Source: Streptomyces niveus
GTDB taxonomy: Bacteria; Actinomycetota; Actinomycetes; Streptomycetales; Streptomycetaceae
Assembly: GCF_002009175.1 (NCBI RefSeq)
Contig: NZ_CP018047.1
Coordinates: 1,302,001 to 1,366,000 of the forward strand
Direction of reading: 5' to 3'
DNA length: 64,000 nt
Shown: piece after piece, positions 37,295 through 62,969 of the stretch
Numbering within the stretch: position 1 is the stretch's first letter
Layout: each line of letters begins with the position of its first letter
Position numbers and translations under genes: made by a program
The notes under the pieces: model-generated
Told to the model about the DNA's origin: nothing
What the model saw: the letters and a program-made list of their open reading frames with translations, nothing else
The model's database searches: none

Positions 37295-37668
37295 CCGCTC
37301 ACGCTCCCACATCCCACGATCGCGCACGGGAGGGGGTCGGGGAGACTCGCGGGACCTCCCCAAGTACCGGCCGCCGGACGAAGGTTCTCCACACCGCCCG
37401 CCGCGGCTGTCGCCGCCGCGACCCGTTGGCAAGTCGGCGCCAAGTCGCGGAACAGTGCCGGCCAAGCTCCCTGGCCGAACCTTCCCTGTATGGAGCGCCA
37501 CCGTCGGGGGACGCCGCCCCATGGATTCCTGCGGCGCATCCGTACCGCCGTCGCCTCGATGAGCGATCCGTTCGCGATTCGGCGTGCCGTTCCCGGGGCT
37601 TCTCGCCGACCGGGCGGTCATGGCACGCGACTCGTCACCGACCCCAGGCATCCAGACAGGAGCATGGC
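37295..37668. other. Long leader region before the terpene-cyclase gene
   Basis: About 370 bp between divergent genes. It contains the SARP-type box at 37430-37469. Further right, 37487-37494 (TGTATGGA) could be a -10 region, which would leave a leader of about 170 nt. I see no gene in it. Confidence 0.6.
37430..37469 (+). promoter_or_regulatory. SARP-type box A before terpene-cyclase gene
   Basis: Heptamers spaced exactly 11 bp: CAAGTCG (37430), CAAGTCG (37441), ACAGTGC (37452), CAAGCTC (37463). A fifth, weaker unit GCCGAAC follows at 37474, and 8 bp later TATGGA (37489-37494) may be the -10 box. This matches the known SARP geometry of 11-bp direct repeats ending 8 bp before the -10. Confidence 0.7.
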
Positions 37669-39318
37669 ATGAGATCACCGAAATTACCGCGTTCCGCCCC
37701 GATTCCGTGGCCCGCGGAAGTTGACCCGGATCACGTCCGCCAGGCCACGTCCGGACTGATCGCGCATGTCAGCGGCAGGGTCGATCCCGGCGGCGCGATA
37801 CGCGAGGAGTGCCGGAGCCGGGTGCTGGAGACGGCGCTCGCGCTGACGCTGATGACACGTACCGGTGTGAACTCGCCAGCTCGGGACAAAGCGCTCGCCT
37901 TCCTCAAGGCGCACCTCGACACGTCGCAGGAGTTCGACCGCGTCCTCGCCACGCTCGCCGTCGCGCGGGCCGCCGACCGGGCGTCCGCCGGTGACGCCGA
38001 CCTGATCGACAAGCTGACCGACGCACTGCTTGGCGCCGCGCCGGAGTTCATCTCCGCCCGCCGTCGCCGGATGCTGTACGCCGTGCTGTCGGTGCTCGGG
38101 TGCCCGCTGCCGCCCGGCGTCGTACCGGGGGCCGACGAGAGGGCTCCCACCGATCCCATCCACTCCTGGGCGGCCGTCCAGCAGGCCTCCGTGACGCTGA
38201 TCCTCGCCTCCGCCACGGGAGTCAGCAACGGGGCCGGCGACGCCGCGCTGCGCACGCTGACCTCCATCCGTCCGGCGGCGACGGTGTGGGAGGGGTACGT
38301 ACTGCTGGACCTGCTGTCGCTGCACGCGCTCGCCGGTGTTCCCGGACAGGAGGCGACGGTGCGCGGTGGCCTGGAGACGCTGCTGCGGCACCAGCGCGCC
38401 GACGGCGGCTTCCCGTTCGTGCTGGAGATGCGGAACTGGTGCACCTCGACGGCCGCGATAGCGCTCACCGCGGCCGGCGCCGGACCGGACGTGCCCATGG
38501 CCATGGCGAAGATGCTGGCCGCCCATCAGGTCGACGACTCGCGGCGCTCGCTGTGCCGTTCCCTCTCCCGTGGCGCCACGCTCGGCGGCGGCTGGTCCAT
38601 CGGCCCCGATGTGGCGCAGAACGATGTCGACTGCACCTCGTGCGTCCTGGAACTCCTGCACGAGATCGATCCGGTCGCCTTCGGCGGCACCGTGCGGCGC
38701 GGTGTGGACGCGCTGCTGGCCGTCCAGGGCGCCGACGGCGGGTTCCCGACGTACGTCGCGGGCGCCTCCTCCGAACCGTGCATGACCGCCGCGGCCGTCA
38801 ACGCGCTCGCGCCGCACGCCGCCACCGCCCCCGCGCGGGAGCGCGCCCTGGCGTTCCTCGCCGACAGCCAGCTGCCCGACGGCGGTTTCGAGCCGGGGTG
38901 GAGCCGCAGCCGTCTGCACACGATGTTCCGCGCGCGTCTCGCCGCGTGCACCGCGGACCCGCGCGACCGCCGTACGGCCGGGGTGGCCGAGCGGATCGAG
39001 CGCTCGGTGTACGACACGCAGAACGCCGACGGGGGCTGGGGCATGCAGCCCGGCGATCCCAGCGACGACATCAGCACCGCCTACGGGCTGATCACGCTGT
39101 GCTACGGGGCCGACGCCCGGCCCGTCGGGCGCGCCCTGTCCTGGCTGCTGGCACGGCAGCGGGCGGACGGCGGATACGGCGGCCCGCCCGACATGGTCGG
39201 CCCCCGCCCGTTCTCCTACCATCTGCCGGTCCTCACCGACATTCCCGTGCTCCTGGCGTTCGGCCATGTGCGTTCCCGGGTCCAGGGCGCGGCGACCCGG
39301 CTCCAGGGGGTGGCTTGA
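37669..39318 (+). CDS. Class II terpene-cyclase-like protein (squalene-hopene cyclase relative)
   Basis: A protein of 549 residues, with AGGAG 6 nt before the ATG. It contains at least five QW-type repeats (QRADGGFPF, QGADGGFPT, QLPDGGFEPGW, QNADGGWGM, QRADGGYGG), the mark of alpha-barrel terpene cyclases. The acid motif is D319-V-D321-C322-T-S. Bacterial hopene cyclases have DxDDTA, and oxidosqualene cyclases have DCTA. Here the first and third Asp of the bacterial motif are kept and the fourth position is Cys, as in the eukaryotic type. No DDxxD motif is seen, so it should cyclise by protonation. A TTA codon is at codon 6. Next to an ABBA prenyltransferase and phenazine genes, it may cyclise a prenyl chain before or after attachment. 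Product unknown. Confidence 0.8.
   Translation: MRSPKLPRSAPIPWPAEVDPDHVRQATSGLIAHVSGRVDPGGAIREECRSRVLETALALTLMTRTGVNSPARDKALAFLKAHLDTSQEFDRVLATLAVARAADRASAGDADLIDKLTDALLGAAPEFISARRRRMLYAVLSVLGCPLPPGVVPGADERAPTDPIHSWAAVQQASVTLILASATGVSNGAGDAALRTLTSIRPAATVWEGYVLLDLLSLHALAGVPGQEATVRGGLETLLRHQRADGGFPFVLEMRNWCTSTAAIALTAAGAGPDVPMAMAKMLAAHQVDDSRRSLCRSLSRGATLGGGWSIGPDVAQNDVDCTSCVLELLHEIDPVAFGGTVRRGVDALLAVQGADGGFPTYVAGASSEPCMTAAAVNALAPHAATAPARERALAFLADSQLPDGGFEPGWSRSRLHTMFRARLAACTADPRDRRTAGVAERIERSVYDTQNADGGWGMQPGDPSDDISTAYGLITLCYGADARPVGRALSWLLARQRADGGYGGPPDMVGPRPFSYHLPVLTDIPVLLAFGHVRSRVQGAATRLQGVA
37684..37686 (+). promoter_or_regulatory. TTA codon at codon 6 of the terpene-cyclase gene
   Basis: In-frame TTA five codons after the start, so translation would pause early if the bldA leucine tRNA is scarce. 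Confidence 0.75.
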
Positions 39319-39327
39319 GCGCACCGC

Positions 39328-39367
39328 CAAGCCGGCGCCAACTCGCGGCACAGTGGGGGCCAAGGTA
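39328..39367 (+). promoter_or_regulatory. SARP-type box B before ABBA prenyltransferase
   Basis: CAAGCCG (39328), CAACTCG (39339), ACAGTGG (39350) and CAAGGTA (39361), each 11 bp apart. A weaker unit GCCAGAC follows at 39372. Layout and sequence match box A, including the third unit ACAGTG. It starts 10 bp after the terpene-cyclase stop and ends 117 bp before the prenyltransferase ATG. Confidence 0.72.
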
Positions 39368-39484
39368 CGGAGCCAGACTTGGGAGCGTCGAGCGCCGGGA
39401 GCGACCACGGTGACGTGCCCCGTGCAAGGGCGGTCGACCGGCCCGATCCAAGCAGACATCCAAGATCGACACGTGGGGGATTCA

Positions 39485-40402
39485 ATGTCCGGAGCCGCTG
39501 ACGTCGAACGCGTTTACTCGGCCATGGAGAGAGCCGCTGGGCTGCTAGACCTGACCTGCGCACGAGAGAAGATCCTGCCGATCCTGACCGCGTACAAGGA
39601 GGCGCTCGCCGATTCGGTGATCGTCTTCTCGATGTCCGGCGGCGACCACTCCGCGGAGCTGGACTTCAGCTTCACGATCCCTTCGGGGGACGTCGATCCG
39701 TACGCCTTCGGTCCGTCGACCGGCATCCCGACGGAGACGGACCATCCCATCGCCTCCCTGCTCTCGGACACCGGGGAGCGGTGCCCCGTCGCCATGTACG
39801 GCGTCGACGGCGAGGTCTCCGGCGGCTTCAAGAAGACCTACGCGGCCTTCCCCATCAATGACTTGCTGGATCTGTCGAAGCTCGTCGCCGTACCGTCCAT
39901 GCCGCCGGCCGTCGCGGAGAACGCCGAACTCTTCGCCCGGTACGGCCTGGACAAGGTGCAGGGAATCTCGATCGACTACCAGCGCAAGCAGGTGAATCTG
40001 TACTGCGGTGACATTCCCGCGGAATCCCTCGAACCGGAGACGGTCCGGTCGATGCTCCGCGAGATGGGGCTGCGGGAGCCGAGCGAGGAAGGGCTGGAAT
40101 TCGTGAGGAAGTCGTTCGCGGTCTATCCGACCCTCAGCTGGGATTCGTCGAGGATCGAGCGGATCTGCTTCGCGGTGATCAGCACGGATCCGACCCTGGC
40201 CCCCACTCGGGTGGAATCGGATGTCGCGCTGTTCTCGAAGTACGCGAACAACGCGCCGTACGCGTACGCCGGGGAGCGCCGCACGCTCATCTACGGTCTC
40301 GCTGTTTCACCCACCAAGGAGTACATCAAGCTCGGTTCGTACTACCAGATCAGCGATCACCAGCGGAAGTTGGTCAAGGCGTTCGACGCCCTTGAGGACT
40401 AG
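39485..40402 (+). CDS. ABBA-family aromatic prenyltransferase, NphB-like
   Basis: A soluble aromatic prenyltransferase of 305 residues. From the start (ADVERVYSAMERAAGLLDLT) through PSMPPAVAENAELFARYGLD to SYYQISDHQRKLVKAFDALE it follows NphB of the naphterpin cluster closely in order and length. Asp60 (ELDF), the Mg-binding Asp of NphB, and the diphosphate-binding lysine region GGFKKTY (113-119) are kept. It should attach a geranyl or other prenyl group to an aromatic ring, most simply a naphthoquinone derived from the type III polyketide synthase. The start codon of the longer upstream frame is rejected because homology begins at 39485. It converges with phzE. Confidence 0.93.
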   Translation: MSGAADVERVYSAMERAAGLLDLTCAREKILPILTAYKEALADSVIVFSMSGGDHSAELDFSFTIPSGDVDPYAFGPSTGIPTETDHPIASLLSDTGERCPVAMYGVDGEVSGGFKKTYAAFPINDLLDLSKLVAVPSMPPAVAENAELFARYGLDKVQGISIDYQRKQVNLYCGDIPAESLEPETVRSMLREMGLREPSEEGLEFVRKSFAVYPTLSWDSSRIERICFAVISTDPTLAPTRVESDVALFSKYANNAPYAYAGERRTLIYGLAVSPTKEYIKLGSYYQISDHQRKLVKAFDALED

Positions 40403-40420
40403 AGCTCCTGGCACGGGACA

Positions 40421-40461
40421 GGGGACGCGCACCACTCGCGGGAGCGAGGGTGCGCGTCCCC
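40421..40461. terminator. Long hairpin between convergent prenyltransferase and phzE genes
   Basis: GGGGACGCGCACC (40421-40433) pairs exactly with 40449-40461. Inside it CTCGC pairs with GCGAG, leaving a 4-nt loop and one bulged A. A T/C-rich stretch follows. It can serve both directions. Confidence 0.8.
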
Positions 40462-40475
40462 CTTCGTCCTTTGCC

Positions 40476-42449
40476 TCAGCTGTCGAGCACGCCGCGCAGG
40501 GCGTCGGCGAACAGCCGGGGCCCGTCGACGGTCAGCACCGACTCGGCGTGGAACTGGAAAGAGGCGAAGTGCGGACCGCGCAGCATGTCCACCTCTCCGG
40601 TGGCCGGGTCGCCGCTGACCCGTACCCGTCCCACCCCCGGCACATCACGGTGGCCGGTGCGGCTGACGGCGGCGAAGGTGTTGTAGTAGCCGACCCGTTC
40701 GGGCCGGCCGAAGAGGTCGATGGAGCGCTGCACGCCCTGGTTGGGCTCGGCCCGCCGCGACAGGTCGAGGCCGAGCCTGCGGCTGAGCACCTGGTGACTC
40801 AGGCAGACCGCCAGGAAGGGGATACGGTCGGCCAGCAGCCTCTCCACGGCCGCGTCCAGTGCCGCGATCTTCGGATCGTGGAGGGCGAGGGGGTTGCCGG
40901 GACCGGGCCCCATGATGACGAGGTCGTACCCGTCGAGCGCGTACGGCGCGTCGTAGCGCAGCACCTCTGCGGTGGGCCCGAGTGCCTCCAGCTGCTGCAC
41001 CATCATGGCGGTGAACGCGTCCTCGGCGTCGACCACCAGGATCTTCAGCCCCTCCAGCTCGGGCACGGTCAGTGGCCGGGTGGCGGTGGACGCGAGCCAG
41101 AAGTCGGCGATGCCGGTGTTACGGGCGCGCAGGGCCTCCCGCACCACGGGATGGTCCGCGAAGCGGCGGGCGACGACAGGATCCGTACCAGGAGTCACTG
41201 ATGGCTCCGCGCCCAGGGCGTCGAGCAGACCGGCCGCCTTGGCGCGGGTCTCCGCCGCCTCCGCCTCCGGGGACGAATGGCGCACCAGGGTCGCCCCGAC
41301 GGCGAGTGACATGCCTCCGTCCGGCGCGATGTCGGCGGTGCGGATGAGTATGGCCGAGTCCATCGAACGCCCGCCCGACGGCTCGTCGCTGATCAGCGCG
41401 GCGACCCCGCTGTAGTAGCCGCGCCCCCGGGGCTCGTGGCGGGCGATGACCCGGGCCGCGCTCTCCACCGGACCGCCCATGACGGTCGGCGCGAACAGGG
41501 TCTCGCGCAGGATCTCCCGTACGTCCCGGCGGGTACGTCCCTCGATGAAGTACTCGGTGTGGGCGAGGCGCGCCATCTCCTTGAGGGCGGGGCCGGTGAG
41601 CCGGCCGCCGTCCTCGCAGATCCGGGACATCGTCTTCAGCTCCTCGTCGAGCACCATGTACAGCTCGTCGGTCTCCTTGCGGTCACCGAGGAACGCGGTG
41701 AGGCCGTCCAGGGTCGCGCCGCCCGGCGGGTAGCGGTAGGTGCCGCTGATGGGGTTCATCACGGCGTGGCCCTCGCGCACCGAGATATGGCGCTCGGGGG
41801 TGGCTCCGACGAACGTCCGGCCGTTCACATGGATGACGAAGGTCCAGTAGGCGCTCTGTTCCAGCGCGACGAGCCGCCGGAAGACGGCCAGCGCGGTGTG
41901 CGCCGGCTCTCCGCCGAGGTCCGCCAGCAGTGTGCGCTTGATGACGAAGTTGGCGCCCTCGCCGGTGCCGATCTCCTCGGCCACGACGCGCCCGACCACT
42001 TCGGCGTACTCGTCGTCGGACAGGTCGAAGCGCTGCCCGGACAGGGCGACCGGGGGGCCGGGCAGCCGGAGCAGAGTTTGCTCCAACGGCAGCACGGCCT
42101 GTTCGGTGACGGTGAGGGTGATGAGGGGCGCCCCGTCGTCCGGGGCGGCGAAACCCCGCTCGGCGAGTTGCCGGTAGGGCACCAGAACCAGCGCGCGATG
42201 TGTGGTGGCGGCCGGCCGGCGTACGGGATCCGGCAGCGGCAGCCTGTCCAGCGAGACGGGGTGCGAGACGTCACCGAGCAGGAGGTCGACCGTGTCCGGG
42301 GTGCCCGTCTCCGGCCGGTGCAGCAGCGCGAAGTCGGGCGGTACGGGTCCGGCCAGCACCCGGTCGAGCAGATCGGGTTCGCCCGGCCCGCCCGGTACGC
42401 CGGTGGCGCCGGGGTCCGGGGTCCGCCGCCCGGTGTGCCGGGCGTTCAC
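40476..42449 (-). CDS. phzE: Phenazine biosynthesis 2-amino-2-desoxyisochorismate synthase
   Basis: A protein of 657 residues, slightly longer than usual. Residues about 100-430 are the chorismate-binding domain ([46 protein letters not shown]). The C-terminal 200 residues are a glutamine amidotransferase domain with the Cys in [16 protein letters not shown] and the oxyanion segment IMGPGPGNP. Ammonia from glutamine converts chorismate to 2-amino-2-deoxyisochorismate, the first committed step to phenazines. Its GTG overlaps the phzD TGA (GTGA), so translation is coupled. Last gene of the operon phzB-phzC-phzD-phzE. Confidence 0.96.
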
Positions 42450-44993: not shown

Positions 44994-45033
44994 CTGCGTA
45001 CCACCCTGTGTCAGCGGACTTGCGAAGCTCTTG
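44994..45033 (-). promoter_or_regulatory. SARP-type box G before phzB-C-D-E operon
   Basis: Read leftward: CAAGAGC (45033-45027), CAAGTCC (45022-45016), ACACAGG (45011-45005), then TACGCAG (45000-44994). Spacing is 11 bp. The first two units and the ACA-type third unit agree with the other boxes; the fourth does not begin CAAG. It ends 99 bp before the phzB ATG. Confidence 0.5.
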
Positions 45034-45086
45034 GCGGTCCGTCGGACCCGTACGGTCCGGTACGGGTCCGACTCGGCCGCAGACGG

Positions 45087-47296: not shown

Positions 47297-48277
47297 TTAG
47301 TCGACGTGAGAGAGCTTGTCGGGATTGGCGATGGCGTAGATACCGCACACCTGGTCGCCCTCCGGTGTGAGGTCCACGACGACGACGGCGTAGGGGGCGT
47401 CGCCGGCGAGCAGCAGAACGGCCGGCTCGCCGTTGACGCTGCGGAAGGCGATGTTGAGGGTCTTGCCGGAGCTGGGGGCGACGGCGGAGAGCAGGCGGGC
47501 GACGGAGTCGCGGCCGCGGATCGGGCGCAGGCCGACCGCGCCCTGGGCCTTGCCCCCGCCGTCGCTCCACATGACGACCTCCGGCGCGAGGATCTCCAGG
47601 AGGGCGTCCAGGTCACCGCCGAGCGCGGCGGCCAGGAACCGTTCGGTCACCTGCTGCCGGACGTGCGGGGCGGGCTTGTAGCGGGGGCGTCGGGCGTGGA
47701 CGTGCTCGCGGGCCCGGTGGGCGAGCTGGCGGACCGCGGCGGGGTTACGGCCGAGCATCTCCGCGATCTCGGTGTGGGCGTAGCCGAACACCTCGTGCAG
47801 GACGAACACCCCGCGCTCCAGCGGGGTGAGGGTCTGGAGGATCACCATCAGCGCCATCGACACCGACTCGGTGCGCAGCGCGACATCGGCCGCGTCGTCG
47901 GCGACGGGGGTGCCGGGGAGGGAGGTGACCAGCGGTTCGGGCAGCCACGGGCCGGTGTAGGTCTCACGGCGGCGGCTGATGGCGGCCTGGTGGGCGAGGG
48001 CCCGGTTCACCGCGATCCGCACCAGATAGGCGCGCGGGCTGTCGATCGGCTCCGCGTCCGGTGCCCGGTTCCTGTTCGTCCAGGACAGCCAGGTCTCCTG
48101 CAGGACGTCCTCGGTGTCGGCGATGCCGCCGAGCATGTTGTAGACGAGGGAGAACAGCAGCTCGCGGTGCTCGTTGAACACCTGTGTCGCGGCGTTCGCC
48201 ACCGGATCCGAAGCCGCCGGCCCCGGGCCGCCCTCGGAGACGGCCGGCTGTGAGCCTGGCGGGGGGTGATGCGTCAT
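47297..48277 (-). CDS. ECF41-type sigma factor with SnoaL-like C-terminal domain
   Basis: A protein of 326 residues. Sigma region 2 (LLFSLVYNMLGGIADTEDVL, TWLSW) and region 4 (LTPLERGVFVLHEVFGYAHT, IAEMLGRNPAAVRQLAHRAR) are complete. The linker WLPEPLV and the C-terminal motifs DGGGK and NPDKL are the hallmarks of the ECF41 group, where the fused SnoaL-like domain modulates activity instead of an anti-sigma factor. It precedes the MMPL gene by 13 bp and probably controls it. The start ATG (48277) is followed by a proline-rich leader of 20 residues. Confidence 0.93.
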   Translation of the reverse strand: MTHHPPPGSQPAVSEGGPGPAASDPVANAATQVFNEHRELLFSLVYNMLGGIADTEDVLQETWLSWTNRNRAPDAEPIDSPRAYLVRIAVNRALAHQAAISRRRETYTGPWLPEPLVTSLPGTPVADDAADVALRTESVSMALMVILQTLTPLERGVFVLHEVFGYAHTEIAEMLGRNPAAVRQLAHRAREHVHARRPRYKPAPHVRQQVTERFLAAALGGDLDALLEILAPEVVMWSDGGGKAQGAVGLRPIRGRDSVARLLSAVAPSSGKTLNIAFRSVNGEPAVLLLAGDAPYAVVVVDLTPEGDQVCGIYAIANPDKLSHVD

Positions 48278-48331
48278 GATGCCTCCCGTCGCGGTTGCGT
48301 TCAGACCTGAGAGCTGTCCGGGCGGCCGGAG

Positions 48332-48338
48332 TGTGACA
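48332..48338 (-). promoter_or_regulatory. TGTCACA, ECF41-type -35 motif before sigma-factor gene
   Basis: On the reverse strand TGTCACA is the -35 element described for ECF41 promoters. The expected CGTC -10 about 16 bp downstream is not evident, so this is only a half-match to an autoregulated promoter. Confidence 0.35.
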
Positions 48339-48351
48339 TCCATTCCAGAAA

Positions 48352-48367
48352 TGTGATCCACATCACA
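48352..48367. promoter_or_regulatory. Perfect CRP-type palindrome TGTGA-N6-TCACA
   Basis: TGTGATCCACATCACA agrees exactly with the CRP consensus and lies 75 bp before the ECF41 start, between it and the second phzB. It suggests control of the sigma-factor/MMPL unit by the Streptomyces Crp protein or a relative. Confidence 0.5.
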
Positions 48368-48407
48368 TGCACGACCGCCCTGGCCGGACGGTGGGCCGAA
48401 GGGCAGG

Positions 48408-48914
48408 TCAGGAGGGGATCCAGTCCCGCTTGATGTGCGGTGTCTCGATGCTGAGGGCACGCATGTGCTCGATGGGATTGGTGTACTCGCGGCTGGCGAG
48501 GATCATTCCGTCACTCAGCGTGAACCCGTGGATGAAGTGGTTGCGGTAGCGCCCCTCGGGATAGCCGGGGAAGCGGATCGTTCCCTCGCCGTCGCACTCG
48601 ACCCAGATGACGGCCGGATCCTGCGTCTCGTAGATACGCACGTCGGTCCACCGCCAGTCGGGCAGTACCTCCAAGGAGAGGACACCGTGCCGCTCCAGCC
48701 GCTCCCTGCCCCGGACGACGATGGGCCGGCCGATGTCGGTGTTGAAGAGGGACGCGGTGCCGTCCTCCGTATAGAGGGTGTGCCTGCGCGACCGGGCCTC
48801 CGCGCCGGTCTCCATGTACCGCTCCACCGCCCGCCGGTTGCGGGCCCGTAAGTCGTGCTGGTCGGTGAACACCGGTGCGGCGGTGCCGGGCCGGGGGGAC
48901 CGTGCCGAGGTCAT
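48408..48914 (-). CDS. phzB: PhzA/PhzB-family protein, copy 2
   Basis: A protein of 168 residues, clearly related to the copy at 44433-44894 (YRNHFIHGFTLSDGM, REYTNPIEHMRALSIETP, WVECDGEGTIRFPGYPEG). It has a longer N terminus and different loop residues, much as PhzA and PhzB form a pair in Pseudomonas. It lies 19 bp after phzG in the same direction, so it belongs to a different transcript from copy 1. The two may form a heterodimer or act on different substrates. Confidence 0.93.
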   Translation of the reverse strand: MTSARSPRPGTAAPVFTDQHDLRARNRRAVERYMETGAEARSRRHTLYTEDGTASLFNTDIGRPIVVRGRERLERHGVLSLEVLPDWRWTDVRIYETQDPAVIWVECDGEGTIRFPGYPEGRYRNHFIHGFTLSDGMILASREYTNPIEHMRALSIETPHIKRDWIPS

Positions 48915-52219: not shown

Positions 52220-52259
52220 TACGGCGAGATCGTCGTGTCCCGCGCTTGGTGTCGGCTTG
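52220..52259 (-). promoter_or_regulatory. SARP-type box C-left before phenazine prenyltransferase
   Basis: Read leftward: CAAGCCG (52259-52253), CAAGCGC (52248-52242), CACGACG (52237-52231), CGCCGTA (52226-52220), all 11 bp apart. The first two are strong, the last two weak. It ends 57 bp before the ATG, a distance nearly the same as for boxes D, E and F. Confidence 0.55.
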
Positions 52260-52291: not shown

Positions 52292-52331
52292 CAAGCCGGA
52301 ACCAAGCCGCCCGACGGTCCACGCCAAGTGC
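52292..52331 (+). promoter_or_regulatory. SARP-type box C-right, facing the small HTH gene
   Basis: CAAGCCG (52292), CAAGCCG (52303), ACGGTCC (52314), CAAGTGC (52325), 11 bp apart, the same four-unit layout as boxes A and B. It points right, away from the prenyltransferase, and ends 325 bp before the HTH gene. Confidence 0.65.
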
Positions 52332-52656: not shown

Positions 52657-52863
52657 ATGAATCGGGAGCCCGCGACCGCGGGCCTGACAGCGGATGACAT
52701 CGTCGGCCTGCTGCGGGTCTCCAAAGGCTCCGTATACCGCTACGCCCACCAGTACCGATGGCGCCGCTACACCGACGCCGGCCGTTCCTACTACCATCCC
52801 GACGACGTCACGGCCACCCTCGATCATCTGGATCAGGGCAAGGGCGACTCCGTGTCACCCTGA
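52657..52863 (+). CDS. Small helix-turn-helix DNA-binding protein
   Basis: A protein of 68 residues: LTADDIVGLLRVSKGSVYRY is a MerR/excisionase-type winged helix start, followed by RWRRYTDAGRSYYHPDDVTA, the usual wing. Nothing else is present, so it binds DNA without an effector domain. A perfect hairpin follows at once, so it is a single-gene transcript. A LexA-type box and a right-facing SARP box lie upstream. It could be a local modulator of the cluster. Confidence 0.75.
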   Translation: MNREPATAGLTADDIVGLLRVSKGSVYRYAHQYRWRRYTDAGRSYYHPDDVTATLDHLDQGKGDSVSP

Positions 52864-55738: not shown

Positions 55739-56737
55739 CTAGCGGGCGAAGACCAACGTGGTCGGTGACGGTGTGCGCTGGAACGAGACCTCGTCGAAGC
55801 CGGCCTTCGCCAGCCAGGTCCGGTAGTCCTCCTGCCGCCAGGTGCCCCCGTGCCTGCTCTTGAGCAGCATCTCCCCCGCGAAGGTCAGCGCGAAGGCGGG
55901 GCCGGAACGGTCGTCGTCGACGACGTAGTCGGAGATGACCAGAGTGCCGCCGGGCCGCAGAGCGCTCCGCACCCTGGCGAAGATCTCCACGTTGCCCTCC
56001 GGTCCTTCCTGGTGGGCGATGTTGGAGTACGTCACGACGTCGTGGGCCGAGGTGCCGAAGTCGGTGGTGTGGAAGTCGCCGTCGAGGTAGCTGACACGAT
56101 CGGCGACGCCCCGCTCGGCGAGCAGCCGGCGGGCGATCGTGTTGATCGGCGCCCAGTCGAGCTGGGTCGAGCGGGCGGCGGGGTTGAGCGCGAGCCAGAC
56201 GGCGGAGTAGATGCCCGATCCGCCGCCTATGTCGAGGATGGAGATCTCACCGGCCTCCGCCAGCCGCAGCGTGTCGGCGGCGATCTCCGCCACGGGGGCC
56301 GACTGCGCGGCGAGGGCCTGGACCAGATTCTCCCAGTGCGGGTTGTCGGCCACCTCCACCACCGCGTCCGTCAGCGGTCCCCCGGCGCGCACGACATCGG
56401 GCAGGTCCGCCAGTGAGGCCATGTGCCCCATCTTGACCTTGGCGAAGCCGGTCAGGGAGGCGGGCAGGCCGTCCACGAGGAAGGCGGACGCCTCGGCGGT
56501 GTTGCGGTACCGGCCGGCGTCCAGTTCGACGAGGCCGAGGGCGACCAGTCCGTCGAGGAGGGTCTGCGCGCCTCGGTGCGATATCCCGGCGAGGTCGGCC
56601 AGTTGGCCCGCGGAGGTCGCGCCGTTCTCCAGGTGGGTGAACACCGAATGGTTCGCCGCCGTCCCCAGGACACCGGTGGCCCAGTAACCGGTGATGAGCC
56701 GCATGATCCGATCCGATGTCGGCTGACCGCTGTTCAT
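55739..56737 (-). CDS. SAM-dependent O-methyltransferase, acetylserotonin-type
   Basis: A protein of 332 residues. An N-terminal winged-helix dimerisation domain (FTHLENGATSAGQLADLAGI) precedes the Rossmann domain with the SAM loop ISILDIGGGSGIYSAVWLAL and the acidic DGDFHTTDFG. Its ATG overlaps the TGA of the type III polyketide synthase gene (ATGA), so the two are translationally coupled. It should methylate a naphthoquinone on carbon or oxygen, as related enzymes do in furaquinocin-type pathways. The usual catalytic His for O-methylation (near YSNIAHQEGPEGN) needs checking. Confidence 0.88.
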   Translation of the reverse strand: MNSGQPTSDRIMRLITGYWATGVLGTAANHSVFTHLENGATSAGQLADLAGISHRGAQTLLDGLVALGLVELDAGRYRNTAEASAFLVDGLPASLTGFAKVKMGHMASLADLPDVVRAGGPLTDAVVEVADNPHWENLVQALAAQSAPVAEIAADTLRLAEAGEISILDIGGGSGIYSAVWLALNPAARSTQLDWAPINTIARRLLAERGVADRVSYLDGDFHTTDFGTSAHDVVTYSNIAHQEGPEGNVEIFARVRSALRPGGTLVISDYVVDDDRSGPAFALTFAGEMLLKSRHGGTWRQEDYRTWLAKAGFDEVSFQRTPSPTTLVFAR

Positions 56738-57843
56738 ATTGTCCCTCCCGAATACAGGTACGACGCCGGCGCGGTGGCCGGGTTTCCTTGTGTGTCCACG
56801 GTCCAACTGCCCAGCGCCATCTCGGCGGTAATGCCGGGACCGAAACCTGCGATCATTCCCGTGGCGGCCGACGGCAGTATCGTCTCCTCCTCGAATTGCC
56901 TCCGCAGCGCCTCCAGGACGACAGCGCTGGCGATGTTTCCGTAATCGGCCAGGGTGGACCAGCTGTGCCGGAACACCTTGCGGTCGACATTGAGGAACTT
57001 CGCCAGGTCGTCCAGAATCCGCGGACCGCCGGCGTGAATGATGTAGAAGTCGAGGTTGCCGACGTCCCAGCCGTGGCTCCTGGTGAAATCGCGCAGTACC
57101 GGGGCGAGCGGTTCCATCGTTCCGGGCACTCGGCGGTCGAGCTGGAAATGGAAGCCGGTGTCGCGCACGGCGTACGAGATCCAGTCCTCGGTGTTCGGAA
57201 TCAGATAGGCGGCGTTGCGCTCCAGGCTGACACCGGTACCACCGTTTCCCCGCACGACGGCGGCGCCGACCGCGTCACCGAACAGGCCGTCGGACAGCAG
57301 CGCGCTGATGTCGTCGTCGGTGGGCTGGTAGCAGAGCGAGCACAGCTCGCAGGAGACGATCAGGACGTTGCTGTCGGGGTGGGCGGCGCAGAAGTCGTGG
57401 GCCCGGTTGATCGCCGCTCCTCCGGCGGCGCAGCCCAGCTGCGCGATCGGCAACTGGCGCGTGTCGTACCGGAACCCCATGGTGTTGATCAGCCAGGCGG
57501 TGAGGGAGGGCATCAGGAACCCGGTGCACGACACGTAGATGATCGCGTCGATGTCCTCGGCCCGGAGGTCCGCGTTCGCCAGGGCCTCCTCGATGACCGG
57601 CGGGCAGCGCTTCTTCGACTCCAGCTCATAGATGCGGTTGCGCTCCTCGAAGCCCGGATGCCTGAGCGTCTTCTCGATGGGCTGCACGATATGACGCTTC
57701 CGCACTCCGGTGTTCTGAATCAATCGAAGCGCAAGCGGCAGCTGCGGCTTTCCCGCATGTACCTTCGCGGCGAATTCCATCGTCTCTTCCGCCGTGATCG
57801 TGTATTCCGGAACATGCACCGACGGCTTGCATAGCGTTGGCAT
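56734..57843 (-). CDS. rppA: Type III polyketide synthase, 1,3,6,8-tetrahydroxynaphthalene synthase
   Basis: A protein of 369 residues that would condense five malonyl-CoA to tetrahydroxynaphthalene. The catalytic triad is at the positions known for this enzyme: Cys138 (AQLGCAAGG), His270 (IIHAGG), Asn303 (YGNIAS). Cys106 (VSCTGF), the residue linked to malonyl priming, is also kept, and the CYQPTDDD segment is typical. It is transcribed leftward from box D, with the methyltransferase gene coupled behind it, and divergently from the SARP gene. Confidence 0.96.
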   Translation of the reverse strand: MPTLCKPSVHVPEYTITAEETMEFAAKVHAGKPQLPLALRLIQNTGVRKRHIVQPIEKTLRHPGFEERNRIYELESKKRCPPVIEEALANADLRAEDIDAIIYVSCTGFLMPSLTAWLINTMGFRYDTRQLPIAQLGCAAGGAAINRAHDFCAAHPDSNVLIVSCELCSLCYQPTDDDISALLSDGLFGDAVGAAVVRGNGGTGVSLERNAAYLIPNTEDWISYAVRDTGFHFQLDRRVPGTMEPLAPVLRDFTRSHGWDVGNLDFYIIHAGGPRILDDLAKFLNVDRKVFRHSWSTLADYGNIASAVVLEALRRQFEEETILPSAATGMIAGFGPGITAEMALGSWTVDTQGNPATAPASYLYSGGTI

Positions 57844-57904
57844 GCCGACTTCCGCCTCTCTGAGGTAAAGAAAGTTCCGCTGTCCCACAGCGTGTACATC
57901 CCAA

Positions 57905-57944
57905 TGTCGCGCAGCTCGCTTGCCACCGACTTGGTGTCGACTTG
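57905..57944 (-). promoter_or_regulatory. SARP-type box D before type III polyketide synthase gene
   Basis: Read leftward: CAAGTCG (57944-57938), CAAGTCG (57933-57927), CAAGCGA (57922-57916), CGCGACA (57911-57905), each 11 bp apart. Exactly 8 nt later TACACG (57896-57891) can serve as -10. It ends 61 bp before the synthase ATG and starts 32 bp before the SARP gene, so self-regulation is possible. Confidence 0.7.
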
Positions 57945-57976
57945 GCCCCTCGCCCTCCCCTGAATAAAGGAGCGAA

Positions 57977-59209
57977 ATGCAGAGGAGTTCAGAGATGATG
58001 AACGAGCAGACCAACACCGATACGGCTGTCGCCGGCCTCAGGATCGCCGACGGTCGCCGGTCGCAGGTCCTTCTCAGGCACCGGCCGGGAGGCGGAATCG
58101 GCGAGGCCCGGTGCATCGCCGAGCTGGAGCGCGAAGTACGGGATCTCCAGAGAGCGAATGCGACACTCAAGCGGTATGTGGCGAAGGTTCTCGAACTGGG
58201 CCTCGAATTCCCGCTGCCCGACGCCGGCTTCGAGGCCACGGGGACCGCCGGGGTCAACGGGGTCACCGGGACCGCCGGGACCGCCGGGACCGCCGGGGTC
58301 ACCGGGGTCAACGGGGTCACCGGGCACAGGAACGGCACGAACGCCGTCGCGTTCTCACGCCGTACGGCTCCGGCCTCTTTCCGGGGGACCGAGGCACCGT
58401 CCCTCAGGTCCCTGGACAGGTCAGCGGACCAGCCCGCGGCCGAGGTCGAGTTCCGGGTGCTCGGTCCGGTGGAGGCCGTTGTCGCGGGCCGCCGGATCGA
58501 CCTGGGAGCGCCGAAGCAGCGTGCGGTACTCGCGCTGCTGGTGAGCCAGGTGGGTCGGCCGGTGTCGGTCGACGTGCTGCTGGAGGAGTTGTGGGAGGGG
58601 CGGCCACCACCTTCGGCGATCACCTCGCTGCACGCGTATGTGGCCAATTTAAGAAGGGTGTTGGAGCCGGATCGGGCACCGCGGAAGCCCGCGACGGTGC
58701 TGCGCACACGCGGTCGCGCGTATCTGCTCGACAACCGCGCCGTCGAGGTGGACGTCCAGCGCTTCGGTGAGCGCGCGAAGGCCGGGTGGCAGGCGCTCGA
58801 CCAGCGCGATCCGCAGCGGGCTCTACGCGAATTCGAGGCGGGCCTGGCACTGTGGCGTGGGCAGGCGTACGCGGAGGTGGCCGACGCGCCTCATGTGGCG
58901 CCGGAGGTCGTACGGCTGGAGGAGTTGCGGCTGTGGGTGGTCGAGGGACGCTGCGCGACGCTGATAGCGGTGGGGGCACACGAGATAGCGGTGTCCGAGC
59001 TGGCCGCCTTCACCCAGGCCCATCCGCTGCGCGAGTACGGCTGTGAGCTGTTGAGCGTGGCGCTGTACCGGGCCGGACGACAGGCCGACGCACTGGCGGT
59101 GCTGCGGTCCCATCAGAAGCGGATGGCCGAGGAGTTGGGGATCGATCCCAGCCCGGCGCTTCAGCATCTCGAAAGGGAGATTCTGCACCAGGCCCCGAGC
59201 CTGGACTGA
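57977..59209 (+). CDS. SARP-family pathway activator with N-terminal coiled coil
   Basis: A protein of 410 residues; AAGGAG stands 4 nt before the ATG. Residues 158-250 are the SARP winged helix (VEFRVLGPVEAVVAGRRIDL, APKQRAVLALLV, SLHAYVANLRRVLEP). Residues 255-405 are the bacterial transcriptional activation domain (FGERAKAGWQALDQRDPQRA). The first 150 residues are unusual for a small SARP: a predicted coiled coil (CIAELEREVRDLQRANATLK) and then repeats of GTAGVTG type. TTA at 58649-58651 (codon 225) makes it a likely bldA target. It probably binds the 11-bp repeat boxes of this cluster. Confidence 0.93.
   Translation: MQRSSEMMNEQTNTDTAVAGLRIADGRRSQVLLRHRPGGGIGEARCIAELEREVRDLQRANATLKRYVAKVLELGLEFPLPDAGFEATGTAGVNGVTGTAGTAGTAGVTGVNGVTGHRNGTNAVAFSRRTAPASFRGTEAPSLRSLDRSADQPAAEVEFRVLGPVEAVVAGRRIDLGAPKQRAVLALLVSQVGRPVSVDVLLEELWEGRPPPSAITSLHAYVANLRRVLEPDRAPRKPATVLRTRGRAYLLDNRAVEVDVQRFGERAKAGWQALDQRDPQRALREFEAGLALWRGQAYAEVADAPHVAPEVVRLEELRLWVVEGRCATLIAVGAHEIAVSELAAFTQAHPLREYGCELLSVALYRAGRQADALAVLRSHQKRMAEELGIDPSPALQHLEREILHQAPSLD
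58240..58324 (+). repeat. Tandem 9-bp-type repeats inside the SARP gene
   Basis: Near-tandem units of GGGACCGCC and GGGGTCAAC/GGGGTCACC encode the GTAG/GVTG stretch (residues about 88-116) that links coiled coil and DNA-binding domain. Such a tract can change length by slippage in multiples of three residues. Confidence 0.7.
58649..58651 (+). promoter_or_regulatory. TTA codon in the SARP gene
   Basis: In-frame TTA (codon 225, in YVANLRRV). In Streptomyces this codon needs the bldA tRNA and is typical of pathway activators. Confidence 0.85.
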
Positions 59210-59283
59210 GGCGTCGGCCCGGCCGTCGGCGCCCCTCATGAGAACCCCACGAAAGTCCACGGACACGGATCAGGAGACCAGGC

Positions 59284-59586
59284 ATGAGCGTTCACAGCTT
59301 CCGCGCCAAGATCAAGCCCGCGAAGATCGCGGAGATGGAGGAGGCGGGCGACAAGATGTTCGCGGCCATCGCCGCAGCCCGGCCGGAGGGCGTCCGTTAC
59401 GCCTGGACCAAGCTGGAGGACGGCGAGACCTATGTGTTCCTCGTCGAGTTCGAGAACGACGACAACACCCCCCTGCTCGCCGTGCCCGCCTTCAAGGAGG
59501 TCATGGCCACGCTGAAGAGCGAGTGGATCGCGGAGCCCCTGGTCGTGGAACGGCTGACGCCCATCGGCTCGTACAAGCTGTTCTGA
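59284..59586 (+). CDS. Small dimeric alpha/beta-barrel protein (antibiotic-monooxygenase-like)
   Basis: A protein of 100 residues: SFRAKIKPAKIAEMEEAGDK, then strand-rich YAWTKLEDGETYVFLVEFEN, and PAFKEVMATLKSEWIAEPLV. The pattern fits the ferredoxin-like ABM/EthD dimer fold used by cofactor-free monooxygenases and cyclases. No catalytic residue can be assigned. It lies 74 bp behind the SARP gene in the same direction and may share its transcript. Confidence 0.75.
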   Translation: MSVHSFRAKIKPAKIAEMEEAGDKMFAAIAAARPEGVRYAWTKLEDGETYVFLVEFENDDNTPLLAVPAFKEVMATLKSEWIAEPLVVERLTPIGSYKLF

Positions 59587-59611
59587 CCGTCCCGGCCCCC
59601 GTTGGCGCCGC

Positions 59612-59651
59612 CAAGCCGGCGCCAACGGGGGGACCAGCCTCCACCAAGTCC
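59612..59651 (+). promoter_or_regulatory. SARP-type box E before the FAD oxidase gene
   Basis: CAAGCCG (59612), CAACGGG (59623), CCAGCCT (59634), CAAGTCC (59645), 11 bp apart, ending 59 bp before the oxidase ATG. Units 1, 2 and 4 keep the CAA core at the same phase as boxes A, B, C-right and F. Confidence 0.62.
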
Positions 59652-59710
59652 TCTCGCGGAGCCTGAGGTTCAGTCGTCCCGCGACGTCACCTCGACGAAA
59701 GAGGCAGCGC

Positions 59711-61228
59711 ATGACCAGTAGAAGATCCTTCCTCGTCGGCGCGGGTGCGACCGCGCTGGCGGTCACGGCGTTCCAGGGCTCCTCCGCCGCCCGGACCGCG
59801 TCGGGCGGCAAGTGGCACCAGTTGCGCCGCCACCTGCGCGGACGGCTGGTACTGCCGTCGGACCCGGACTACCGGAGGGCGAAGCAGCTCTATCTGATCC
59901 AGTTCGACGACAGCCGTCCCCGGGCGATCGCCTACTGCGCCTCCGCCGCCGACGTGGCGCTGTGCCTGCGCTTCGCCCAGGACCACGCCCTGCCCATCGC
60001 CGTGCGCAGCGGCGGCCACAGCGCGGGCGGATACTCCACGACGGAGGGTCTCGTCATCGACGTGTCCCGGATCGACTCCACCGTCCTCGGCCGCGACACG
60101 GCGACGATCGGCCCCGGGGCGCAGCTCGTCGACATCACGAACACGCTCGCGCCGGCCGGGCTGACGATTTCCGGCGGCTACTGTCCGACGGTCGCGGCCG
60201 GCGGCTACTTCGCGGGCGGCGGCATGGGCCTGTTCACCCGGAGTATCGGCATGGCGTCGGACAAGGTGACGTCGGCGGAGGTCGTCCTCGCCGACGGGAG
60301 CGTCGTGACCGCTTCACCGCGCCGCAACAGCGACCTCTACTGGGCCGTCCGCGGCGGCGGGGGCGGCAACTTCGGCGTCGTGACGTCCTACGAGGTCACC
60401 CCGACGCCCCTCACCGATCTCGCCGCCTGCAACCTCTCCTGGAGATTCGACCAGGCGCTGGACATGCTCGACGGCTGGGCGCGCTGGCTGGTCGACGCGC
60501 CCCGCGCGATCGGCAGCGGGCTCCTGGTGACGCTTGAGGACGCCGCGCCCGGCAAGGTCCCGATGGCGACCATCTTCCTGGGCTCCGTGGACACGGGCGG
60601 CGGGTTCGACGGCGAGATCGACCGGCTCGTCTCCCTGATCGGCCACGCCCCGTCGTTCCGGCAGACGCACACGGCGCCCTACCAGGACATCCTGATGGAC
60701 CTCTATCAGTGCGGCGGTCTCACGGTGCAGCAGTGCCACCGCGCCGACACCTCCCCCGGTGGTCAACTCACCCGGCCGGCCTTCGGGTTGTGGCGCAGCC
60801 GCCTGTTCGGTGAGGATGCCATGCCGCGGGAGGGCTGGGCGAAGGCGCTCTCGGTCCTCGACTCGGAGCGGCAGGCCGGGCAGATGCGCCAGTTGCAGGT
60901 CGTCGCCATCGGCGGGGCGGTCAACTCGGTGTCGCGCGGCGCCACCGCGTACGTCCATCGCGACAGCCTCTTCTCGGCGAGTTTCCTCACCTCGAACTCC
61001 GTCGCACCGGTCCCGGACGAGGCCAAGGAGTCGGCCGGACGGTTCGTCGACGCCGGGTTCGCCGTACTCGATCCCTATTCGAACGGCGAGACGTACCAGA
61101 ACTTCTACGACTCCCGCCTGCCGGACTGGCAGAGCTCCTACTACGCCGAGAACTATCCGCGGCTCAAGCGCGTCAAGAGGAGCTACGACCCGCACAACAT
61201 CTTCCGGTTCGCGCAGAGCATCCGCTGA
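59711..61228 (+). CDS. Tat-exported FAD-linked oxidase, berberine-bridge type
   Basis: A protein of 505 residues. It starts with a twin-arginine signal (TSRRSFLVGAGATALAVTAF). The FAD domain has SGGHSAGGYST with His103 and ISGGYCPTVAAGG with Cys158, the two residues that bind FAD covalently in berberine-bridge-type enzymes, and GGGGGNFGVVT. The C terminus has YDPHNIFRFAQSI. Such oxidases close rings or oxidise alcohols on finished scaffolds, often outside the cell. The Tat signal suggests a last oxidation after export. It is preceded by SARP box E. Confidence 0.92.
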   Translation: MTSRRSFLVGAGATALAVTAFQGSSAARTASGGKWHQLRRHLRGRLVLPSDPDYRRAKQLYLIQFDDSRPRAIAYCASAADVALCLRFAQDHALPIAVRSGGHSAGGYSTTEGLVIDVSRIDSTVLGRDTATIGPGAQLVDITNTLAPAGLTISGGYCPTVAAGGYFAGGGMGLFTRSIGMASDKVTSAEVVLADGSVVTASPRRNSDLYWAVRGGGGGNFGVVTSYEVTPTPLTDLAACNLSWRFDQALDMLDGWARWLVDAPRAIGSGLLVTLEDAAPGKVPMATIFLGSVDTGGGFDGEIDRLVSLIGHAPSFRQTHTAPYQDILMDLYQCGGLTVQQCHRADTSPGGQLTRPAFGLWRSRLFGEDAMPREGWAKALSVLDSERQAGQMRQLQVVAIGGAVNSVSRGATAYVHRDSLFSASFLTSNSVAPVPDEAKESAGRFVDAGFAVLDPYSNGETYQNFYDSRLPDWQSSYYAENYPRLKRVKRSYDPHNIFRFAQSIR

Positions 61229-61232
61229 TCCG

Positions 61233-61287
61233 CACACGGAAGGGCCCGGTCCCGGCATCGGATGCCGGGACCGGGCCCTTCCGTGTG
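61233..61287. terminator. Perfect 27-bp hairpin between convergent oxidase and ligase genes
   Basis: 61233-61259 pairs exactly with 61261-61287 around one central base (arm begins CACACGGAAGGGCCCGG). It starts 5 bp after the oxidase stop and ends 13 bp before the ligase stop, so it serves both. Confidence 0.9.
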
Positions 61288-61300
61288 TGGCGCGTCTCCG

Positions 61301-62863
61301 TCACCGGATCTGTTCGTGAAGGCGGCGGGACAGCTCGACCCGGCGTGTCTTCAGCGTTGCGGTGCGCGGCAGTTCGGCGAGCGGGATCTGGACCGGTTCG
61401 GCCAGCTGCGGGTACTCGGCGACGGCCGCGCGCCAGCGGTCCAGGTCGAGCGGCCTGTCCCGGTCGGTGCAGACGACCGGGATCGCCTCGGACCTCGGGC
61501 CCGGCACCACGACGAGCTCGATCAGCTCTTCCAGCCTGTCCAGCACGAGGTCCTCTATCTCAAGGCTGCTGCCTACACCGGGAATCGCGTCCACCTCCCG
61601 GTCGAGCATGTGCAGGCAGCCGAACCTGGTGCGGTAGCCGACGTCTCCGGTGCGCCACCATCCGTCGTGCACGTTGGCGTCGTAGCGCTCCTGCTCGCCG
61701 AAGTACGACTTCGCTATCCCGTCCCAACGGGCCTCGATGAAGCCCGGGTTCGCCGCCGACGGCCGCTTCCCGTTCTGGCTCACCAGCCGCACCCGCGCGC
61801 TGCCGGGCAGCGGATAGCCCACGCAGCGCCCGTCCATCCGGCGCATGGACCGGCGGAAGTACGGCCGGCCGACCGCCGGGCCGACCTCGCTCTGTCCGTA
61901 GATCTGGAAGAACTGCGGTGTCCGGCGCTCGGAGGACTTGAGCAGCCGGCGAACGGTTCGGGGGTGGAGCGCGTCGAACGTGCTGCTGAAGTACTTGACC
62001 GAAGCGAACGGCTTGCGCGGATCGTCGGCCAGGCTCTCCCATGCCAGGAACGAGTTGGGCAGCGCCTCGATCAGCCCCGGCCGGTGCTCGGCGAAGAAAT
62101 CGGCGACGTCGTCGGGGGCACCCTCGTTCACCAGGAGCACGGGCATCGAGCGGAACAGGCACAGGGACATCGCCGCGAACATCCGCGAGTGCCCGAAGGC
62201 GATATGGATGGCGACGGTCTCGCGCCTGCGCATCAGCGCCAGCAGGAACAGCTGCGGCCGGAGCCGGGAGCGCATCGTACGCGGCGTGTGCACCACCAGC
62301 TTGGGGAGCCCGGTGGTGCCGGAGGTGTGTGTGATCAGCGCCGGCTCGTCCAGCCCCTGGAGCACCGGCCGCACTGACGGTGATCCGGCGAGATCGGCGA
62401 GGGAGGCGACTCCCGGCCCGGAGCCGTCCACACTGATCAGGCCCTTGGTGAGCTCGGCCAGCGGCACCCCGGCGAGCGACTTGAGCTTGGTCGCGTCGGT
62501 GAGCAGGTGCGGCTGGTCGAGTCGCCCCAGCAGCGCCGCGATGGTCGCGCTGTCCAGCGCGTGCGACAGCATCACCGGCACCGCACCGGCACGCGCCACC
62601 GCCGTGGCCAGCAGCCAGATGTCGAAGTTGGCCCTCTTGTGGATGACGACGCGCTCGCCGGGCAGCACCCCGGCCGCCCGGATCCGGCCCGCCAGGTCCG
62701 CCACATGACCGGCGAGTTCGGCCACCGTCAGACGCCGTCCCGCCTCCGGCAGGGCGTCGAGGTCGTGATCGAGGGTGAGCGGCGTCGTACCACCCCCGGC
62801 CGCCGCCCTCTCCGGTACGACTCCCAGGTACAGGCCGCGCTTGTGGATCGAATCACTGCTCAT
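61301..62863 (-). CDS. AMP-forming acyl-CoA synthetase/ligase family protein
   Basis: A protein of 520 residues of the ANL adenylating superfamily. Core motifs: ITHTSGTTGLPKLVVHT (A3), IYGQSEVG (A5), DGWWRTGDVGY (A7) and a C-terminal lysine in PRTATLKTRR (A10). It could activate a carboxylic acid for CoA or amide formation. Another possibility is an ATP-dependent diazotase of the CreM type, which would remove the amino group added by the aminotransferase. Diazotases need nitrite-forming creD/creE-type genes, absent in this window. Transcribed leftward from box F. Confidence 0.85.
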   Translation of the reverse strand: MSSDSIHKRGLYLGVVPERAAAGGGTTPLTLDHDLDALPEAGRRLTVAELAGHVADLAGRIRAAGVLPGERVVIHKRANFDIWLLATAVARAGAVPVMLSHALDSATIAALLGRLDQPHLLTDATKLKSLAGVPLAELTKGLISVDGSGPGVASLADLAGSPSVRPVLQGLDEPALITHTSGTTGLPKLVVHTPRTMRSRLRPQLFLLALMRRRETVAIHIAFGHSRMFAAMSLCLFRSMPVLLVNEGAPDDVADFFAEHRPGLIEALPNSFLAWESLADDPRKPFASVKYFSSTFDALHPRTVRRLLKSSERRTPQFFQIYGQSEVGPAVGRPYFRRSMRRMDGRCVGYPLPGSARVRLVSQNGKRPSAANPGFIEARWDGIAKSYFGEQERYDANVHDGWWRTGDVGYRTRFGCLHMLDREVDAIPGVGSSLEIEDLVLDRLEELIELVVVPGPRSEAIPVVCTDRDRPLDLDRWRAAVAEYPQLAEPVQIPLAELPRTATLKTRRVELSRRLHEQIR

Positions 62864-62929
62864 GAGGCCCCCATCCAGACCAGCTTCAGTTCCCGGCAAC
62901 CAGTGCGCCTGTCGACAGCTTCCTGGACC

Positions 62930-62969
62930 GGGCTTGGGCCCCGATGTCCCACGAGTTGGCACCGGCTTG
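62930..62969 (-). promoter_or_regulatory. SARP-type box F before the AMP-ligase gene
   Basis: Read leftward: CAAGCCG (62969-62963), CAACTCG (62958-62952), ACATCGG (62947-62941), CAAGCCC (62936-62930), each 11 bp apart. The first two units are identical to box B. It ends 66 bp before the ligase ATG. Confidence 0.7.

Follow-up and report, generated by a model that had tools for sequence, protein, structure and literature searches.

A probable SARP operator common to the meroterpenoid and phenazine genes of a Streptomyces niveus cluster

How might one regulator reach the genes of both a meroterpenoid and a phenazine pathway? The question is raised by a 64,000-nucleotide stretch of the Streptomyces niveus genome (bases 1,302,001-1,366,000 of a single 7,990,492-bp contig), the whole of which is called the window here, with positions counted from its first letter. 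Eight elements in its promoter regions, boxes A to H, carry CAAG units at an 11-bp pitch, and one gene encodes an activator of the SARP (Streptomyces antibiotic regulatory protein) family. A single SARP operator common to the meroterpenoid and phenazine genes is the best reading, and the boxes are very probably the operator of the cluster's own SARP, the counterpart of MfqF.

The window cluster is the marfuraquinocin/phenaziterpene cluster of S. niveus SCSIO 3406, a producer of both compound classes with a published genome (PMC7987185). In the part of that article available, Table 3 lists a squalene-hopene-type cyclase, an ABBA prenyltransferase and PhzE, and continues later with a methyltransferase, a type III polyketide synthase (PKS), a 'putative transcriptional regulator', an FAD dehydrogenase and an acyl-CoA synthetase; the gene order of the window is the same. 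The boxes, with one more just past the window end, and the SARP gene are as follows.

Box A, 37430..37466, + strand: four-turn array with the -10-like element GAACCT (37477-37482), before the terpene cyclase gene (inferred ATG at 37669); position weight matrix (PWM) score 52.7
Box B, 39328..39364, + strand: four-turn array before an ABBA prenyltransferase gene (mfqW counterpart by gene order); PWM score 49.4
Box C, 45003..45033, - strand: two proximal CAAG units and the -10-like element CAGGGT, before the genes for PhzB, DAHP (3-deoxy-D-arabino-heptulosonate 7-phosphate) synthase and PhzE
Box D, 52229..52259, - strand: two proximal CAAG units and the -10-like element GACGAT, before the second ABBA prenyltransferase gene (mfqM counterpart by gene order) and the genes that follow it
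Box E, 52292..52328, + strand: four-turn array with no -10-like element at the register, facing a small helix-turn-helix (HTH) gene; PWM score 26.9
Box F, 57903..57944, - strand: three proximal CAAG units and the -10-like element GACATT, before the genes for the type III PKS (tetrahydroxynaphthalene (THN) synthase) and an O-methyltransferase
Box G, 59612..59648, + strand: four-turn array with the -10-like element GAGCCT, before a BBE-type (berberine bridge enzyme) FAD oxidase gene; PWM score 43.4
Box H, 62933..62969, - strand: four-turn array with the -10-like element GAAGCT, before an AMP-dependent ligase gene; PWM score 47.8
Ninth box, L090:4504-4556, - strand, just past the window end: last unit CAAT, before the genes for an aromatic-ring hydroxylase and a major facilitator superfamily transporter; matrix score 48.1
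SARP gene, 57977..59209, + strand: MfqF counterpart of 410 amino acids, assigned by domain matches and an alignment to AfsR

The boxes are direct repeats at an 11-bp pitch, as is characteristic of SARP operators. A preliminary description of this DNA had counted five exact matches to CAAG-N7-CAA-N19-CAAG, and these are indeed found at 37430, 39328, 52292 and 59612 on the forward strand and at 62969 on the reverse. It had also proposed a count over the whole genome, and all of the matches in 7.99 Mb are those same five in the window, so the proposal withstood this check of its own. The reversed pattern, used as a control, has 4 matches genome-wide, and 100 dinucleotide shuffles gave none, as against five in the window. 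A pattern with a 12-bp pitch occurs 4 times in 392 genomes and is absent from S. niveus, although with 15 fixed bases against 13 it is rarer in itself. When a matrix was built from the four-turn boxes of other genomes, boxes A, B, E, G and H were recovered in the window, with F weak (14.3); in six shuffled versions of the window it had at most one match each. The spacing of 57-66 bp to the start codon noted earlier is true of the arrays at 52220, 57905, 59612 and 62930. The remaining three boxes exist as well. The core CAAG(C/T)CG proposed for every 11-bp turn is not present in all units: the third turn is degraded, in a form that relatives also keep.

The arrays are placed at a fixed distance from a second conserved feature. 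In an alignment of 65 distinct exact boxes (five from S. niveus, and four, L063, L071, L081 and L082, that are probably sites of other SARPs or chance matches), an A and a T four bases apart are conserved downstream. Among 40 boxes from genomes other than S. niveus, A at offset 48 and T at offset 52 occur together in 33, compared with 4 for the next-best offset; without L115, which is the suspected other-SARP site L063 again, the count is 32/39. Six of the eight window boxes have the pair (p about 2e-9). The A48/T52 pair is, to judge from its position, the place of a putative -10 hexamer. The register rule came from the four-turn boxes and was only afterwards used on C, D and F. Counted back from the -10-like hexamer, the units in C and D are the third and fourth, and those in F the second, third and fourth, so the 'units 1 and 2' first assigned to these three boxes are instead the promoter-proximal ones. 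A search of the genome with CAAG-N7-CAAG-N11-A-N3-T finds exactly boxes C, D and F (reversed control, 5 matches). The third turn reads ncAGTcc in 38 training boxes, with A in 31, G in 34 and T in 33, and so is a degraded unit rather than a free spacer.

By sequence, then, the repeats overlap the -35 region and end at a fixed short distance before the -10-like element, as in SARP operators, except in E and, by one base, in B. For AfsR, the two 11-bp repeats are placed from -40 to -30 and from there to -19, according to the available text of PMC10936776. If the hexamer starts at -12, as inferred, and if the 11-mers begin three bases before CAAG, turns 3 and 4 of the boxes would stand at the AfsR repeat positions.

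The same array is found in relatives. Twenty loci were collected from named genomes by SARP similarity, of which L055 (32% identity, no array) was excluded. The exact array is present in 13 of the remaining 19, with 19 arrays in all, and the reversed pattern in none; the 13 array-bearing loci belong to Streptomyces, Actinomadura and Actinacidiphila. Maps of 25 loci (18 of the 19, the 5-kb L041 being omitted, and seven further stretches) hold 34 four-turn boxes. For 23 of these, an ortholog of a window gene, as mapped by tblastn with PhzE left off the maps, lies no more than 450 bp downstream with the box pointing at it. The targets are the AMP ligase (8 boxes), an ABBA prenyltransferase (8), the terpene cyclase (2), the HTH protein (2), orf100 (2) and a cupin (1). 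One of the 34 boxes begins inside an ortholog frame. Of the 11 boxes with no such ortholog, nine are followed by a called open frame at no more than 600 bp.

A comparison of whole genomes is the one test free of the bias of SARP-baited loci. It was drawn from a SARP search of 392 genomes of the genus, and the pattern sought was CCAAG-N6-CCAA-N19-CAAG. The array occurs in 14 of the 17 genomes with the best SARP matches (62-93% identity, S. niveus left out). It occurs in none of 17 genomes with only next-best, distant SARP matches, and in none of 17 with no SARP match at E<=1e-40 (there are 115 of this kind, and the 17 come from a list of 20 of them); for 14/17 against 0/34, Fisher's test gives p 5e-10. 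There are 36 array matches, 21 of them within 60 kb of the SARP gene, 10 far from it and 5 on other contigs. In a tree of 51 rows, the 34 MfqF-like SARPs form one clade with a support of 100/100.

Stretches L063, L071, L081 and L082, which lie a long way from the MfqF-like SARP gene or on a different contig, have CAAG in all or nearly all four 11-bp turns, and in L063 TAGGGT is found at the -10 register. These are possibly the sites of other SARPs.

The matrix was also applied to plasmid clusters outside the training set. In NBC_00663, NBC_00028 and NBC_00019 alike, the three best matches are intergenic and 95-176 bp before genes. An FAD monooxygenase follows at 154 bp, an aromatic prenyltransferase at 95 to 161 bp and ScyD, the gene for which adjoins ebo-type genes, at 175 or 176 bp. 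Four shuffles of each cluster gave 0 to 2 matches. A fourth plasmid, NBC_00564, has weaker matches only (best 14.1), one of them 114 bp before a prenyltransferase. Because the three clusters are close kin and training box L060 resembles the ScyD box, these are not three independent tests.

Individual boxes can also be followed in relatives. Sites at promoters equivalent to those of boxes C and F are found in G353, and sites similar to F occur 3-4 kb from the SARP gene in G278, G074 and G321; the one in G278, oddly, ends only a few bases before the aligned PKS start. The S. iakyrus counterpart of box D (L037) contains three CAA(G) units and has the same end point. Box E is kept in two relatives, L036 and L093. 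Its last CAAG is 332 bp from the start of the first downstream gene, that of the small HTH protein, while boxes D and E stand back to back, 32 bp apart; box E may serve box D rather than the HTH gene. Immediately upstream of box C (45041-45072) there is a perfect 13-bp inverted repeat with a 6-bp loop, which may be a further operator or a terminator.

Genetic evidence for this kind of control comes from Streptomyces sp. S4.7, the mfq cluster of which has been termed virtually identical to that of SCSIO 3406. In the text available (PMC12814520), this cluster is silent in the heterologous host S. coelicolor M1154, where overexpression of MfqF switches on the marfuraquinocins; MfqF is required (Table 2). 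MfqF together with phzF gives phenazine-1,6-dicarboxylate, while phzF alone gives neither product class. One operator on both branches predicts these genetics, in which MfqF is necessary for both pathways. The main text of PMC12814520, as available, mentions no operator and does not contain the terms 'direct repeat', 'heptamer', 'motif', 'consensus' or 'leucine zipper'. No description of an MfqF operator was found in the literature on SARPs, furaquinocins, meroterpenoids and MfqF, among the matches listed and as judged by title and the start of the abstract.

A possible mechanism can be drawn from the layout, in which CAAG units phased at 11 bp lie on one helix face and end at a fixed distance before a weak -10-like element. 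By analogy with the solved AfsR complexes, MfqF protomers would bind adjacent turns side by side, replace -35 recognition and recruit RNA polymerase. Two contiguous proximal units would be enough, as in boxes C and D; in A, B, G and H, which have a degraded third turn, there are two more units farther upstream. Since there is a box before the THN synthase, the terpene cyclase, both prenyltransferases, and the phenazine and tailoring genes, a single protein would switch on both branches together. No box pointing at the SARP gene itself was found, so that this gene probably answers to some other signal.

Other proteins encoded in the cluster or elsewhere in the genome could be considered as owners of the boxes. 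Three further genes bear on the matter.

HTH gene, 52657..52863, + strand: 68-amino-acid helix-turn-helix protein, mfqL counterpart by gene order, with HTH matches below the Pfam cut-off
ECF gene, 47297..48460, - strand: extracytoplasmic function (ECF) sigma factor with a SnoaL-like domain, mfqQ counterpart
PKS gene, 56734..57843, - strand: type III polyketide synthase (THN synthase), the target of box F

BldC binds head-to-tail repeats, and the small HTH protein might do the same; it is encoded in the cluster, box E faces its gene, and it has HTH_23 and HTH_17 matches, though below cut-off. That the boxes belong to it is nonetheless most improbable, for a counterpart was detected in only 2 of 24 mapped loci (L036 and L093; tblastn at E 1e-8, a limited search for 68 residues), while boxes are present in many others. 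Nor did overexpression of mfqL, or of mfqQ, each by itself, activate the S4.7 cluster, as far as PMC12814520 is available. There is still less reason to expect that the element is a promoter of the ECF sigma factor with the CAAG turns as its -35 region. ECF promoters are not known to be built of repeats at exactly 11 bp across four turns. The ECF gene is present in the cluster and in several relatives, and mfqQ is needed for the phenazine dicarboxylate; its deletion abolishes the phenazine product only and leaves the marfuraquinocins made under MfqF intact (PMC12814520, in the text available), so the meroterpenoid promoters need no mfqQ.

An operator for another SARP of S. niveus is an equally slight prospect. 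Counting the one in the cluster, there are three SARP matches at E<=1e-40 in the genome, and PimR, SanG and PolR have been described as using CAAG-ended heptamers. The array is absent, however, from all 17 genomes with only distant SARPs, and MfqF is the activator in the near-identical S4.7 cluster, according to the text available. The MfqF counterpart is the very probable owner, and the SARP regulon joining the pathways, as first proposed, is supported by the tracking of the array with one SARP clade, by its place upstream of orthologous genes in other genera, by SARP geometry and by mfq genetics.

Several points weigh against this assignment. In the window, box E has no -10-like element and that of box B (cAgacT) is one base out of register. 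The four-turn matrix misses C and D at scores of 4 or more and gives F only its weak score, and since the training set is defined by the CAAG positions, these give no independent test in the window. The half pattern CCAAG-N6-CCAA is by itself not rare, with 15 matches genome-wide, against 32 for the reversed control; 7 of the 15 fall within 27 kb at the cluster, and the ninth box is one of these. Among relatives, 6 of the 19 loci are without an exact array in the flank examined, and all were fetched with the SARP as bait. The genome groups were chosen by SARP score and not at random, and three of the 17 SARP genomes (G267, G166 and G224) lack an exact array. The reversed pattern also matched, 4 times in the SARP genomes and 6 and 5 times in the two control groups. 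Finally, 15 of the 36 array matches are far from the SARP gene or on other contigs, although four of these look like sites of other SARPs or chance.

Some distant sites are of interest in themselves. In G184 (8,039,333 bp) two back-to-back boxes, one four-turn and one half pattern (L091:5388-5687), stand 1.2 Mb from the SARP gene, between a fused IspH-prenyl diphosphate synthase and a lone ABBA prenyltransferase. A matching pair with both genes, 96-97% identical, is present in G047, which is thus close kin of G184; the pair is also seen in stretches L152 and L153. In G105 both boxes are kept, and the two flanking genes give no tblastn match in the 11 kb examined; this pair may be a relic. A matching locus, in which CnqP2 adjoins a polyprenyl synthetase and a 4-hydroxy-3-methylbut-2-enyl diphosphate (HMBPP) reductase, is described in the available text of the CNQ-509 paper, with no mention of a SARP. 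In S. niveus itself, a 15-position pattern with up to 3 mismatches gave 10 matches against 17 for the reversed control, the phzF loci not being looked at separately, and hence no believable distal site.

The two-unit pattern with its -10-like element, CAAG-N7-CAAG-N11-A-N3-T, gave 58 matches against 42 for the control in the SARP genomes, 21 against 54 in those with distant SARPs and 17 against 38 in those with none, 17 genomes each. As it is not clean, only recurrent sites were considered. Recurrent two-unit sites with a -10-like element (L132, L133 and L135) are found before an FAD oxidase/P450 locus, a multicopper oxidase and an MMPL gene, and can be regarded as leads. The four genomes with these distal sites are presumably MAR4-like. 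A multicopper oxidase 53-54% identical is encoded near the SARP gene in plasmid clusters L148, L149 and L151, with no matrix box before that gene.

The SARP itself has a winged helix (PF00486, Trans_reg_C, residues 178-251) and a BTAD domain (PF03704, 258-403), the combination that defines the family. Residues 151-409 align to AfsR (E 4e-39), so that about 150 residues precede the aligned part, and the ATG has a good ribosome site. The protein ends at 410 residues with no Pfam domain past BTAD, and therefore lacks the C-terminal ATPase/LAL half of the SARP-LAL (PimR) class. N-termini of this SARP type share the segment R[IV]AELEREVxELRRANExLKxYFA. In S. niveus, residues 27-65 (within window positions 57977-58426) resemble the linker and leucine zipper of OrfA proteins with the domain PF01527 (HTH_Tnp_1), which we take to be IS3-family OrfA transposases; the match covers 39 residues at 59%.

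The 90-residue N-terminus of the Actinomadura pelletieri SARP gave 1,525 matches at E<=0.01 in 5.8 billion sequences. Among the best 120, the first two look like SARP fragments and nearly all the others, from E 1.4e-9, are PF01527 proteins, many named transposase. Against one of these, P0014, 36 of 57 residues are identical (63%), a glycine-containing linker included, with a 3-residue deletion. The linker and zipper common to both proteins read G.RSG..GDARRIAELEREVRELRRANE.LK..YFA..LD. A plain coiled coil would not keep the linker, and the match is read as homology. No PF01527 match was detected in four SARP N-termini, and the OrfA alignment begins after the HTH domain. The zipper is present in 27 of the 34 clade members (26 by regular expression, L012 by eye) and in none of the 17 other rows of the tree. 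An AlphaFold2 model of the SARP is poor (mean predicted local distance difference test score 44.5); it shows a single helix at 41-71 across the zipper, and no conclusion here depends on it. No SARP with a transposase-type leucine zipper was found in the literature among the matches listed.

A requirement of the zipper for the four-turn array was considered and rejected: L046, L048, L050 and L021 have the array beside zipperless SARPs. Two species of these zipperless-SARP loci also hold a zippered SARP (L042 and L043). One guess is that the zipper bridges two SARP pairs. More broadly, and as a tentative proposal that is rather doubtful as a whole, the clade could have arisen by capture of the oligomerization zipper of an IS3 OrfA. 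The zipper would allow two SARP dimers to occupy a single four-turn array and so to span its degraded third turn. In several actinomycete genera the clade would have become the master regulator for naphthoquinone meroterpenoid clusters, and its regulon would extend to unlinked precursor genes (the fused IspH-prenyl synthase and the lone ABBA prenyltransferase 1.2 Mb away).

A shared operator would explain the co-activation of two chemically unrelated pathways, which was found and left unexplained in the available text of the mfq study. It also gives naphthoquinone meroterpenoid clusters an operator that can be searched for, which should help to locate unlinked partner genes and to awaken clusters that are silent. 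The zipper points to a part of a mobile element reused in an antibiotic regulator. Operators of this kind were already known. What is new is this particular operator with its corrected register, its conservation across the clade, the unlinked isoprenoid/prenyltransferase locus and the OrfA-like N-terminus of the SARP.

Known systems resemble this one in different parts. The S4.7 mfq cluster has a regulator set identical to that of S. niveus and needs MfqF for both pathways (PMC12814520, in the text available). AfsR of S. coelicolor, with its afs box (PMC10936776, in part; PDB 8hvr, 8jke, 8k60), shares the winged helix and BTAD, and its two 11-bp direct repeats over the -35 region and the -35/-10 spacer, with a weak -10, are by sequence like the window boxes. 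In contrast to these, the afs box repeats are of the CGTTYATCG type and only two in number, and where AfsR has NOD (nucleotide-binding oligomerization) and TPR (tetratricopeptide repeat) domains, MfqF has an N-terminal zipper. The operators of PimR, SanG and PolR, as described in the available parts of PMC3367932 and PMC5930380, have the heptamer CGGCAAG in two or three units, and the main PimR operator is like the window boxes in its CAAG-ended heptamers with 4-bp spacers. Unlike MfqF, these three are SARP-LAL proteins, and the PimR operator does not overlap the -35 region; the window boxes differ from all three in that they reach four turns, the third of them degraded, and stand at many promoters. 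With IS3 OrfA the MfqF type has the linker and zipper in common, but the OrfA helix-turn-helix is absent and the zipper leads into the SARP instead.

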